NCBI RefSeq assembly: GCF_017795885.1
Contig: NZ_CP059297.1
Location: 1,555,001 to 1,619,000 of the forward strand
Direction: 5' to 3'
DNA length: 64,000 nucleotides
Source: Brevundimonas sp. AJA228-03
GTDB taxonomy: Bacteria > Pseudomonadota > Alphaproteobacteria > Caulobacterales > Caulobacteraceae
Under the pieces are notes generated by a model that saw only the letters and a list, made by a program, of their open reading frames with translations, was not told the DNA's origin and made no database searches. Shown here piece by piece: positions 58,783 through 64,000 of the stretch; positions within the stretch are counted from its first letter, which is position 1, and each line of letters starts with the position of its first letter. The position numbers and the translations under genes were made by a program.

Positions 58783-59412
58783 CTATTCCGCGTCCGGCTG
58801 CAGGTCGGGGTGGGTTTCGGCGAAGGCGGGCAGGGCCAGGCAGGCCGCCTCGATCGCGGCGAGCCGAGGCCAGCGCAGCGCGACTCCAAAGCGGCGCGCA
58901 TTGGCCATCTGCGGCACCAGACAGATGTCGGCGAGCGTCGGCGTGTCCCCGAACGCATGGGGTCCGGACTGACCGGCGGCGAGCGTCTCGAGCGCGTCGA
59001 AGCCGCTGGCGATCACATCCCGGGCCCAGCCGTTGGTATCGTCCTGGGTCTGACCGCGCGCCTGAAGCGCCTTGAGCACGCGCAGATTCTGCACCGGGTG
59101 GATGTCGCAGGCGATGACCTGGGCAAAGGCGCGCACCCGCGCGCGGCCCAGGGGATCCGCGGGCAGCAGCGCCGGATCGGGATAGGTCTCGTCCAGATAC
59201 TCGCAGATCGCCAGCGACTGGGTCAGGACCGCGCCGTCGTCCAGGATCAGGCTGGGCAGCAGGCCCTGCGGATTGAGCGCCAGATACTCCGGCGAAAACT
59301 GTTCGCCCTTGCGCAGGTGCTGATGCCGGTGCTCGACCGTCAGCCCCTTGAAATGCAGCGCGATGCGGACCCGCCAGGCGGCCGAGGAGCGGAAATAGCC
59401 GTGCAGGATCAT
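58783..59412 (-). CDS. maiA: Maleylacetoacetate / maleylpyruvate isomerase (zeta-class GST)
   Basis: A 209-residue GST-fold protein. The zeta-class motif SSAAWRVRIALHFKG (catalytic SSxxWRVRIAL) and TQSLAICEYLDETYPDPALLP are diagnostic. The enzyme isomerises a cis maleyl ring-cleavage product to the fumaryl form with glutathione. Its neighbours suggest maleylpyruvate (gentisate pathway) at least as strongly as maleylacetoacetate (homogentisate pathway). ATG 59412 is used; the longer open frame upstream runs into the hydrolase gene. Confidence 0.92.
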   Translation of the reverse strand: MILHGYFRSSAAWRVRIALHFKGLTVEHRHQHLRKGEQFSPEYLALNPQGLLPSLILDDGAVLTQSLAICEYLDETYPDPALLPADPLGRARVRAFAQVIACDIHPVQNLRVLKALQARGQTQDDTNGWARDVIASGFDALETLAAGQSGPHAFGDTPTLADICLVPQMANARRFGVALRWPRLAAIEAACLALPAFAETHPDLQPDAE

Positions 59413-59422
59413 GGTCGCGGTC

Positions 59423-60115
59423 TCAGCGGGCGGGCGGGCCGATGGTGACCGTGAGCGTGCCCAGCCCGTCGATCGCCCCGACCAGGACATCGCCCTGAAC
59501 CACGGGGCCGACCCCTGCCGGTGTGCCCGTATAGATCAGGTCGCCCGGCTCGAGGCGATAGAATCTGGACAGATGGGCGATGACTTCCGGCACCGACCAG
59601 ATCAGGTCCGCCAGGTCGCCGGTCTGTTTTGTCACGCCGTTGACCGCAAGGGTGACGGTGCCCTTCGATACATCCAATCCGGCGGCCGGATGGATGGGCC
59701 CCAGCGGCTTGGATTCCTCGACATTCTTGCTGACGTCCCATGGGCGGCCGGCGTCGCGGGCCATGAACTGAAGGTCGCGGCGGGTCATGTCGAGGCCGAT
59801 GGCATAGCCATAGATAAGGTCCATGGCCCGGTCCTCCGTGACCTCGCGGCCTGACTGGCCGATGGCGATGACCAGCTCGATCTCGTGCTGGTAATCCGAG
59901 GTCGCCTGGGGATAGGCGATGGTGCTGCCGTCCGGCACGACGGTTTCGGCCCAGCTGGTGAAGAAGAAGGGCGGTTCACGATCCGGATCCTTGCCCATCT
60001 CGCGGGCATGGGCGGCGTAGTTGCGGCCGATGCAGAACAGGCGACGGACGGGGAAGCGCTCGCCCGTGGTGGTCGGGGCCAGAACGGCGGGGGGCGGCGC
60101 GAAGGTCAAGGTCAC
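59423..60115 (-). CDS. Fumarylacetoacetate hydrolase family protein (fumarylpyruvate hydrolase-like)
   Basis: A 230-residue FAH-family enzyme of the short type (YcgM/NagK/FAHD1-like): FCIGRNYAAHAREMG, metal-binding Glu residues in YQHEIELVIAIG, YGYAIGLDMTRRDLQ, and GDLIYTGTPAGVGPV. It cleaves an acylpyruvate such as fumarylpyruvate to fumarate and pyruvate. Start GTG 60115, seven bases after GGAAG. It is upstream of, and almost touching, the isomerase gene, so the two form a consecutive pathway pair. Confidence 0.9.
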   Translation of the reverse strand: MTLTFAPPPAVLAPTTTGERFPVRRLFCIGRNYAAHAREMGKDPDREPPFFFTSWAETVVPDGSTIAYPQATSDYQHEIELVIAIGQSGREVTEDRAMDLIYGYAIGLDMTRRDLQFMARDAGRPWDVSKNVEESKPLGPIHPAAGLDVSKGTVTLAVNGVTKQTGDLADLIWSVPEVIAHLSRFYRLEPGDLIYTGTPAGVGPVVQGDVLVGAIDGLGTLTVTIGPPAR

Positions 60116-60526
60116 GCGTTGTCTTCCTTGTAAAGGCTCAATGTTTCCCGGCAGGCCTGGTCGGGTCACGACTTCGATCCAGCCGCCGGACCCGGGTCTT
60201 CGCAAAATGACGTTATTTCATTTCTGGTTCGAGGGACATCATCTTGCCCTCCGCTTGCTGGAGTATCTCGCCGGGCCGGATGCGCCCATCGGCGCGTGAG
60301 AGATCGATGCCATTGGGCGCGTCCGGAAGGTGGGCGTTGATGTCATCCGATCGCATGGCATACTCCCACTCGACCCGTATCGATATCGAGGGGGACGATC
60401 AGGCCAGGCAATAGAAAGCGCTGTCTTTGTTCCGATTATCAACGGCGCGACCGGTGTCACGCGTCTTGTCGCAAAATCGCCAAGGCTTGCCCGTAAGGGT
60501 CTGTTTTCCTGATATTTTTATGGTTC
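60116..60526. other. 411-base non-coding stretch between the hydrolase operon and tRNA-Ser
   Basis: No gene with supporting features. It contains the promoter region of the hydrolase operon, including the dyad AAATGA-N7-TCATTT at 60205-60223 (about 90 bases before the GTG start), a plausible operator. An AT-rich patch (60500-60522) lies just downstream of tRNA-Ser on that gene's strand. The TCGATATCGA palindrome near 60380 is probably chance. Confidence 0.45.
60205..60223. promoter_or_regulatory. Inverted repeat upstream of the hydrolase-isomerase-reductase operon
   Basis: AAATGA-CGTTATT-TCATTT, six-base arms with a seven-base centre in an otherwise GC-rich context. It is placed about 90 bases before the hydrolase GTG. 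It could bind a GntR-, MarR- or IclR-type catabolic regulator; none is encoded nearby. Confidence 0.35.
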
Positions 60527-62441: not shown

Positions 62442-62525
62442 GGGGTTGACAGCAGGCGTCGGCCACGGCGTCTGCGGCCTCTCGTTCCGGCAACGAAACC
62501 GGACCGACCGTGTTAGCGTAAGCTC

Positions 62526-62569: not shown

Positions 62570-64000
62570 ATGACGTCTTCACCCCGGATCGCGGCTCGCG
62601 ACAATGACGACGTCCAGCGCTTCCGGGCCGTAAGGGCGGCCATGCCCGCGCTGGCCGAGGGCCTGTCGGTGGAGGATCTGACCGCCCAGTCCATGCCGGA
62701 CGCCAGCCCGTCCAAATGGCATCTGGCGCATACCAGCTGGTTCTTCGAGGCGATGATTCTGGCGGCTGACCCGGATTATGTGCCGGTCGATGGCCGGCTG
62801 CAGCCGCTGTTCAATTCCTACTACGAGAGCCTCGGTCGGCGGGTCGAACGCGGCGAGCGCGGGCTGATGACGCGTCCGTCGCTGGACGACGTCATGGCCT
62901 ATCGGGGCGAGATCGACCGCCGCATGGAGGCGCGGCTGGAGGCTGGCCTGGGCGGCGATATGGATCGCTATCTGTTCGTGCTGGGCCTGCATCACGACCA
63001 GCAGCACCAGGAGCTGTTCCTGATGGATCTGCTGCACCTGATGTCACGGTCTCCGCTGGACCCGGCAGCCTGTCCGGTGGAGCCGCGTCCCGGTGGGCCG
63101 ATGCAGTCGGCACGCGGCGGGACCACGCGCTTCGAGGGCGGGCTGGTCGATATCGGTCACGACGGCCGGGGGTTCGCCTTCGACAATGAGGGGCCTCGAC
63201 ACCGCGTGTGGCTGGAGCCGTTCCTGCTCGACCACGACCTGGTCACCAACGGCCAGTGGATGGCCTTCATGGCCGACGGCGGATATCGCCGCGCGGAACA
63301 CTGGCTGGCCGACGGCTGGGCCACGGTGAAGGCCGAGGGCTGGACCGCGCCGCTCTATTGGCGTGAGGACGACGGTGTCTGGACCGTGCTGGGACTGACG
63401 GGGCGCGCGCCGGTCAATCCGGATGCCCCGGTCCGTCATATCAGCGCCTACGAGGCCGAGGCCTTCGCGGCCTGGTCGGGCCGGCGCCTGCCGACCGAGG
63501 CCGAGTGGGAAAGCGCCGTCACCACCGCGCCGGACGTGTTCTCGAACCTGTTCAACGAGGTCTGGCAACATACCTCCAGCGCCTACGCCCCCTATCCGGG
63601 GTTTCGCCCGACCGAGGGCACGGCGTCGGAATACAACGGGAAATTCATGGCCAATCAGCGCGTGCTGAGGGGCGGCAGCCTGGCCACGCCGCCGGGACAT
63701 GCCCGGGCGACCTACCGCAACTTCTTCTATCCGCAGCAGAGGTGGGCCTTCATGGGCTTGAGACTGGCGGCCGACGCGCCCGCCGCAAGACGACCCCGCA
63801 TCGAGGACGTCGAGACCGCGCGCTTCCGCGCCGAACTGATCGCGGGCTTGTCCCGGCCGCAGAAGGCGGTCTCTCCCAAATGGTTCTACGACGCCGCAGG
63901 CTCGGACCTGTTCGAGGACATCACCCGACTGCCGGAATACTATCCCACACGCCAGGAAGCGGCCCTGCTGAAGATCATGGCACCCCGGCTGACAGCGGGC
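62570..64000 (+). CDS. EgtB-EgtD fusion, ergothioneine biosynthesis (3' end outside window)
   Basis: One uninterrupted frame from ATG 62570 to the window edge (477 codons). Residues about 20-170 are the DinB-like iron site of the sulfoxide synthase EgtB: His51 (KWHLAHTSWFFE) plus His142 and His146 (HHDQQHQEL). Residues about 180-402 are the FGE-sulfatase domain (GFAFDNEGPRHRVWLEPF, PVRHISAYEAEAFAAWSGRRLPTEAEWE, RVLRGGS, MGLRLAAD). After about 12 linker residues the frame continues as the start of the histidine trimethyltransferase EgtD: FRAELIAGLSRPQKAVSPKW and FYDAAGSDLFEDITRLPEYY. No stop, frameshift or new start separates them. Confidence 0.88.
   Translation, partial: MTSSPRIAARDNDDVQRFRAVRAAMPALAEGLSVEDLTAQSMPDASPSKWHLAHTSWFFEAMILAADPDYVPVDGRLQPLFNSYYESLGRRVERGERGLMTRPSLDDVMAYRGEIDRRMEARLEAGLGGDMDRYLFVLGLHHDQQHQELFLMDLLHLMSRSPLDPAACPVEPRPGGPMQSARGGTTRFEGGLVDIGHDGRGFAFDNEGPRHRVWLEPFLLDHDLVTNGQWMAFMADGGYRRAEHWLADGWATVKAEGWTAPLYWREDDGVWTVLGLTGRAPVNPDAPVRHISAYEAEAFAAWSGRRLPTEAEWESAVTTAPDVFSNLFNEVWQHTSSAYAPYPGFRPTEGTASEYNGKFMANQRVLRGGSLATPPGHARATYRNFFYPQQRWAFMGLRLAADAPAARRPRIEDVETARFRAELIAGLSRPQKAVSPKWFYDAAGSDLFEDITRLPEYYPTRQEAALLKIMAPRLTAG

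Follow-up and report, generated by a model that had tools for sequence, protein, structure and literature searches.

The fused egtB-egtD gene and its predicted product

The window analysed here is a 64,000-nucleotide stretch of the Brevundimonas sp. AJA228-03 genome (G000:C1:1555001-1619000), at whose downstream end lies a plus-strand egtB-egtD gene (62570..64000 in the window). Codons 1-477 fall inside the window and a further 242 beyond its edge, where the frame closes with a TGA stop (L002:7728-7730, the equivalent of 64727-64729), giving 719 codons and a protein of 719 residues and 79.5 kDa in which a complete EgtB precedes a complete EgtD. The initial annotation, made on the part up to 64000, proposed that EgtB is read without a stop into EgtD; the frame passes 64000 with no early stop and reaches a full EgtD after those 242 codons, and both the coordinates and the EgtB-then-EgtD order given there agree with the domain matches at residues 16-400 and 419-704, each of which lies over its family cut-off. 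The EgtB sulfoxide synthase domain (62615..63769, plus strand, residues 16-400) scores 493.7 bits against TIGR03440, the hercynine sulfoxide synthase model, over a curated cut-off of 360. A variable interdomain linker (63770..63823, plus strand, approximately residues 401-418) separates it from the EgtD histidine N-alpha-methyltransferase domain (TIGR03438, PF10017), which begins on the same strand at 63824..64000 and continues beyond the window (residues 419-719). The match of this half to TIGR03438 reaches 359.6 bits (cut-off 290.9) and full length, with residues 419-704 spanning model positions 2-288 of 301, and its PF10017 score is 349.7 bits. The Pfam domains of the fused protein are DinB_2, FGE-sulfatase and Methyltransf_33. 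Elsewhere in the window, at 58783-60205, two minus-strand frames read, from the frames alone, as a maleylacetoacetate isomerase and a fumarylacetoacetate hydrolase.

Two other identities were considered and set aside: SenA for the EgtB half, at 346.5 bits below the cut-off of 420, and OvoA, whose N-terminal domain model (TIGR04344) gives 86.2 bits with a cut-off of 400. The nearest solved EgtB structures are those of Chloracidobacterium thermophilum (Cth; PDB 8qf6, 6qki and 6o6l), chains of 434-462 residues that match residues 16-402 at about 410 bits, without the EgtD part, whereas the EgtB chain 4x8b reaches only 146 bits. The closest solved EgtD is PDB 4pim, which we take to be from Mycobacterium smegmatis, with 251 bits and 281 of 307 given residues aligned; it is a free-standing chain of 323 residues, whereas the EgtD here is a C-terminal domain that perhaps also occurs as a free form of 325 residues.

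Alignment with Cth EgtB, 4x8b and OvsA places the first predicted Fe ligand at His54 (62729..62731, plus strand) and the second and third at His142 and His146 of an HxxxH motif (62993..63007, plus strand), and all three face histidines in the aligned chains and together make up the predicted three-histidine iron site. The initial annotation had already named His142 and His146, and the alignment supports both; its choice of His51 as the remaining ligand has to be replaced, as that residue is aligned with Asp in 4x8b and with Glu in OvsA; in both of these, as in the Cth EgtB chains, it is His54 that has a histidine opposite. The three histidines are kept in 59 of 59 fused proteins, as are Y457, Y458, Y606 and E680, with N566 kept in 58 and S682 in 57 of the 59; the EgtD positions in this list (57 to 59 of 59 conserved) are those that we presume to be key.

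The genome has a single EgtB match and a single EgtD match, both within the fused gene, and no second copy of either was found elsewhere in it. Given a complete frame, two families over their curated cut-offs and active-site positions that are kept in fused relatives, the gene very probably encodes a bifunctional ergothioneine enzyme, EgtB-EgtD, resembling fungal Egt1 with its halves swapped. In the pathway that we propose, the EgtD half would methylate histidine three times with S-adenosylmethionine to yield hercynine, the Fe(II)/O2-dependent EgtB half would combine hercynine, probably with free cysteine, into a sulfoxide, and a PLP lyase would trim the sulfoxide to ergothioneine. Both enzyme activities of the fusion are predicted from sequence. 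Cysteine is the presumptive sulfur donor, and Cth EgtB prefers cysteine according to an excerpt of PMC10903977. Since Cth EgtB also shows EgtB-type activity, according to a passage of PMC9103826, gamma-Glu-Cys is a possible donor as well.

A search of the genome for EgtC returned nothing over the cut-off, and the sole match below it sits in a frame read as glmS. Nor did a search of the genome for EgtE return anything over the cut-off; below it were four PLP enzymes, namely SufS, a NifS-like protein, a class V aminotransferase whose leader reads as Tat-like, and a protein read as GcvPB. The class V aminotransferase (L123:1459-2775, G000:C1:106421-107395) is the genome's best yet weak EgtE-like match and is nearest to PvdN, at 113 bits with a cut-off of 650.

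Distribution and history of the fusion

The best 120 of 8000 scored protein relatives are 694-731 residues long and carry both EgtD and FGE domains. At the level of genomes, 80 named loci were kept from 171 relatives (Brevundimonas, Phenylobacterium, Caulobacter and MAGs), and both domains lie in one frame in 79 of the 80, L109 being cut by a contig end. A sample of the order comprised 398 genomes, 227 of them with EgtD. In the family Caulobacteraceae, 69 of 77 EgtD-bearing genomes have a single frame of 722-996 aa, 34 of the 69 having been verified for both domains and the remaining 35 called fused from the length of the frame together with the C-terminal motif of EgtB at the junction; the other eight (G356, G186, G329, G371, G166, G017, G061 and G191) were checked as two genes. 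That the fusion is a sequencing or assembly artefact, with a stop missed or a frameshift introduced at the junction, is scarcely credible when the same single frame recurs in 79 of 80 named loci, type strains included, and in 69 of 77 family genomes. The architecture that the initial annotation had seen in one gene recurs in these relatives, and the fusion is a clade trait of Caulobacteraceae.

In the other families of the order, no frame longer than 572 aa appeared among the matches listed. Frame length can mislead as a sign of fusion, as in G450, G960, G921, G491 and G1038, where frames of 585-814 aa were rejected with EgtB in a separate frame, and outside the family a fusion was therefore counted only if the two domains shared a frame. 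Among the 385 genomes of the class sample, 123 of which gave a match, fusions outside the family were found in G475, G737, G714 and G712; the phylum sample, with 111 matching genomes out of 398, contributed G1060. Most of the genes examined outside the family are separate and adjacent, often with a 4-nt overlap, and for these relatives the expectation that bacteria usually encode the two enzymes in adjacent genes holds good.

A search with the EgtD part among fused-length proteins gave 941 matches at E <= 1e-20 from 8000 candidates, and the names among the best 120 of the 941 include Rhodospirillales, Caulobacteraceae, Silvimonas and one Klebsiella, a label that we suspect to be misassigned. 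Both domains were found in 239 of 241 proteins, the other two having EgtD only, and every one of the 239 is ordered EgtB-EgtD. One protein, P0159 (1079 aa), has about 350 extra residues between its EgtB and EgtD halves, a middle part for which no Pfam or NCBIfam family is listed as a third domain.

Of the 77 loci whose genes are split and on the same strand, 75 have egtB upstream of egtD, and 36 of these 75 tandem loci offer a start codon, ATG in 24 cases, in a 4-nt overlap with the egtB stop; from such an overlap a single indel would be enough to fuse egtB and egtD. An overlap in relatives had been put forward as evidence against a fusion, and such 4-nt overlaps do exist, but mostly in other lineages, the close relatives being mostly fused. 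The sets used for trees and overlaps exclude duplicate genomes and loci, as well as loci in which EgtB or EgtD was not found or is on the opposite strand. On a tree of 192 rows, 116 of them fused and 76 split, parsimony requires 5 switches between the two states, and on a more careful one of 48 rows it requires 6 (5-6 over the bootstraps); parsimony alone cannot separate fusion from splitting. In the larger tree, a single clade of 114 rows contains the family fusions, L190 and four split genes.

The split genes inside the fused clade are L113, L114 and L115+L116, and because the trees nest them there, secondary splitting is suggested. In L113 (G356), one in-frame TGA (L113:4055-4057, reverse-strand numbering) with a GTG directly after it parts EgtB from EgtD. 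What reads as a Shine-Dalgarno sequence (SD) precedes the egtD ATG in L115 and L116. L117 and L118, likewise split and from the same family, sit far away among other split genes. The fused gene L190 (G1060) belongs to another class, yet the tree groups it with L013 and L212 within the Caulobacteraceae, a placement that points to a possible horizontal transfer. As the split rows L220, L008 and L010 meet the fused rows of the 48-row tree at an unresolved node, a single origin of the fusion is likely rather than certain.

A putative internal start at the domain border

The border between the two domains holds a putative internal ribosome-binding site and start (63740..63754, plus strand). The junction at 63737-63766 reads CAG AGG TGG GCC TTC ATG GGC TTG AGA CTG, in which AGG TGG is SD-like and the in-frame ATG (63752-63754, Met395) stands 9 nt after AGG. 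The AGG is the codon of Arg391, and just 3' of the internal ATG lies a second conserved rare Arg codon, the AGA of Arg398 (63761..63763, plus strand). Initiation at 63752 would give an EgtD of 325 residues and 35.3 kDa, close to the 323 residues of the solved free EgtD. A first SD scan picked out 23 of 117 fused loci. With a wider one, an SD of at least 5 was found ahead of a start codon in 43 of 116 fused loci and in 34 of 77 split ones, whereas non-start codons have it in 2.8% of cases.

Codons at the junction were counted in the 116 fused and 63 split genes that remained after rows without the R[WF]..x[GA][LVI]R motif had been left out. Fused genes with a junction Met have AGG at Arg391 in 42 of 44 cases, with AGA in one and CGC in one, while the 72 fused genes without it and the 63 split genes have zero AGG or AGA at that position. 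Within a discovery set of 61 Brevundimonas-type genes (de-duplicated, and with fused genes below 590 bits to the EgtB half left out), AGG/AGA is found at Arg391 in 42 of 43 genes with Met and in 0 of 18 without, and AGA/AGG at Arg398 in 36 of the 43 Met-bearing genes; these are the only two of 30 Arg columns to exceed 10% AGG/AGA, the other 28 never doing so. Validation drew on 36 further loci, 14 of which were junction-identical to earlier ones and were left out, and in the 22 new loci AGG stands at Arg391 in 8 of 8 genes with Met and 0 of 14 without, with AGA at Arg398 in 7 of the 8.

In the Met group, synonymous constraint peaks at codons 390-398, a window that does not rank among the top ones in genes without Met; four-fold sites are near saturation on average (identity 0.527, expected 0.443), with some pairs as high as 0.89. 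Tyr355 (63632-63634, TAC) and Glu456 (63935-63937, GAA) have a strong synonymous preference both with and without the internal Met. The RNA around the internal ATG is less folded than the remainder of the gene (z +1.22, positive in 98%), compared with z -0.57 at the same place in genes that lack the Met; the approximate egtB start scores +0.74. Predicted anti-SD energy at the internal start is -7.7 kcal/mol, as against -2.8 at 625 other internal Mets, and by this measure the internal start ranks first in 28 of the 43. Only in the Met-bearing half does conservation of the SD-like sequence, the start codon and the open structure go further than the amino acids require.

The junction Met is present in 20 of 40 fused Brevundimonas genomes of the order sample, the window's included (17 of 35, plus G000, G350 and G071 with Met and G216 and G111 without), where genus membership was inferred from named relatives. 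Among named strains, Brevundimonas variabilis DSM 4737 (L043) carries it, whereas Brevundimonas bacteroides DSM 4726 (L039) has the fusion without it. The junction Met is commoner in the discovery set (43 of 61) because that set was drawn toward the window's own protein. Its absence from 18 of 61 discovery genes, from 14 of 22 new genes and from the fused loci of other genera means that function does not depend on it. On the tree the Met changed 7 times, 4 of them on supported branches, and AGG follows it in 3.6 of 4 supported pairs, which are too few for significance (p 0.125); the tie of Arg398 to Met is weak, with 1.8 pairs changing the same way, 0.5 the opposite way and 1.7 showing no difference.

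The main rival to an internal start is a pause site, with the fusion as sole product and AGG...ATG...AGA acting as a translational pause that lets EgtB fold before EgtD emerges. AGG and AGA are rare in these genes, at about 3% and about 1% of Arg codons, and they are located at the domain border; SD-like stretches within genes can slow ribosomes, and the junction has a stretch of that kind. A pause needs no Met, however, and yet AGG/AGA tracks Met in the discovery set and again in the new loci, a tie that a pause leaves unexplained, and the RNA at the junction is more open, a trait shared with the approximate egtB start. We therefore regard the pause as rather unlikely, and consider it fairly probable that ribosomes also start at Met395 (ATG 63752), releasing a free 325-residue EgtD, in which case the methyltransferase would outnumber the sulfoxide synthase. 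With the same moderate confidence, about half of Brevundimonas egtB-egtD genes, the window's among them, may be two-product genes, each giving a 79.5-kDa fusion and a free 35-kDa EgtD. The initial description of the locus as one polypeptide is borne out for the frame, which is single, but is perhaps incomplete, as the internal start may give free EgtD too.

An alphaproteobacterial precedent for an internal in-frame start is provided by AerR of Rhodobacter capsulatus, for which long and short isoforms are described in an excerpt of PMC6199135, although that start is an internal CTG in a photoreceptor and the one here a putative ATG that follows an SD-like AGGTGG where two enzyme domains meet. 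If the internal start is used, this lineage joined two enzymes yet kept a means of making excess methyltransferase; since the tree shows several changes of the second start, species with the fusion only and species with split genes are available to compare with it.

Possible roles of the covalent link

Among 117 fused loci the linker, counted from where the RLR motif ends as far as PKWFYD, varies from 28 to 49 residues. The AlphaFold model of a 97% identical relative (mean pLDDT 82, pTM 0.56; weak stretches at residues 1-11, 84-96 and in the linker at 407-411) predicts two domains without a fixed mutual arrangement and lends no support to a channel. It had been suggested initially that the covalent fusion could channel hercynine from EgtD to the EgtB active site, and it is true that the two steps are consecutive, that the fusion is widespread and retained in the family, and that fungi also join both enzymes, albeit in the opposite order. 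Neither the variable linker nor the low pTM favours such a role, however, and split genes inside the fused clade and a probable additional source of free EgtD speak against it further, so that channelling appears distinctly improbable.

Another possibility, which we consider marginally favoured, is that the fusion mainly fixes the co-expression and ratio of genes that already overlapped, one indel being sufficient and little further effect ensuing. The 4-nt overlap is available in nearly half of the split tandem loci (36 of 75), the tree shows at least 5 switches between fused and split, and an internal start would restore free EgtD, all of which fit this view; retention of the fusion in 69 of 77 EgtD-bearing family genomes is, on the other hand, beyond what drift alone suggests for a change of little effect.

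Relation to known enzymes

As first noted for the window's gene, the order of the domains is opposite to that of fungal Egt1, being EgtB-EgtD here and in all 239 two-domain proteins. Fungal Egt1 and Aspergillus EgtA have the same two activities (predicted in our case) on one chain, with the fungal order being EgtD-EgtB, and fungi use cysteine without the EgtC step according to a passage of PMC5066259; in this genome, too, no EgtC was found over the cut-off. From their reversed domain order, the fungal and bacterial fusions may have had separate origins. OvoA, the ovothiol enzyme, is likewise a single chain in which the methyltransferase comes after the sulfoxide synthase, as stated in an excerpt of PMC10903977, but the methyltransferase half here is EgtD. 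Tandem egtB-egtD pairs of alphaproteobacteria, as in Methylobacterium aquaticum 22A and Sphingopyxis granuli, specify the same two enzymes but as two genes, 'encoded in tandem' in the words of an excerpt of PMC4621440.

Among the titles and opening lines of abstracts searched, we found none that describes a bacterial EgtB-EgtD fusion; one passage of a paper gives a second-hand hint of it. Each part has been described before, and precomputed domain annotation already displays the fused architecture; what sets the gene apart is the reversed order, the mixed history of fused and split genes and the probable two-product gene. Fungi and bacteria joining the same enzymes in opposite order make a clean case for asking what the fusing of consecutive enzymes buys, and with fused, split and probable two-product versions of the gene all within Brevundimonas, the benefit of fusion can be tested on close relatives. 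Two cautions for annotation also emerge: the names shown for such proteins cover one half only ('EgtB' or histidine methyltransferase), and a search for open frames misses internal starts of this kind.

Putative promoter and predicted stress control

A putative EcfG (general stress response) promoter, GCAAC-N16-TGTT, lies at 62490..62514 (plus strand) and ends 55 nt before the start codon; this loose form is the only one that the window's gene carries. Upstream of the fused genes, at varying distance, the strict form GGAAC-N15-18-CGTT occurs in 32 of 80 and the loose form in 50 of 80, where shuffles lead one to expect 0.28 and 1.42, respectively, and where 3 and 33 of 847 control intervals contain them. 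A scan for sigma-70 promoters gave no match, and NepR is present in the genome. The fused gene is thus predicted, from these motifs, to be under EcfG control, and ergothioneine synthesis may here be part of the general stress response. In Sphingopyxis granuli, an excerpt of PMC7083833 lists putative egtB and egtD in the general stress regulon and gives GCAAC as one of the two most frequent -35 boxes of that regulon.
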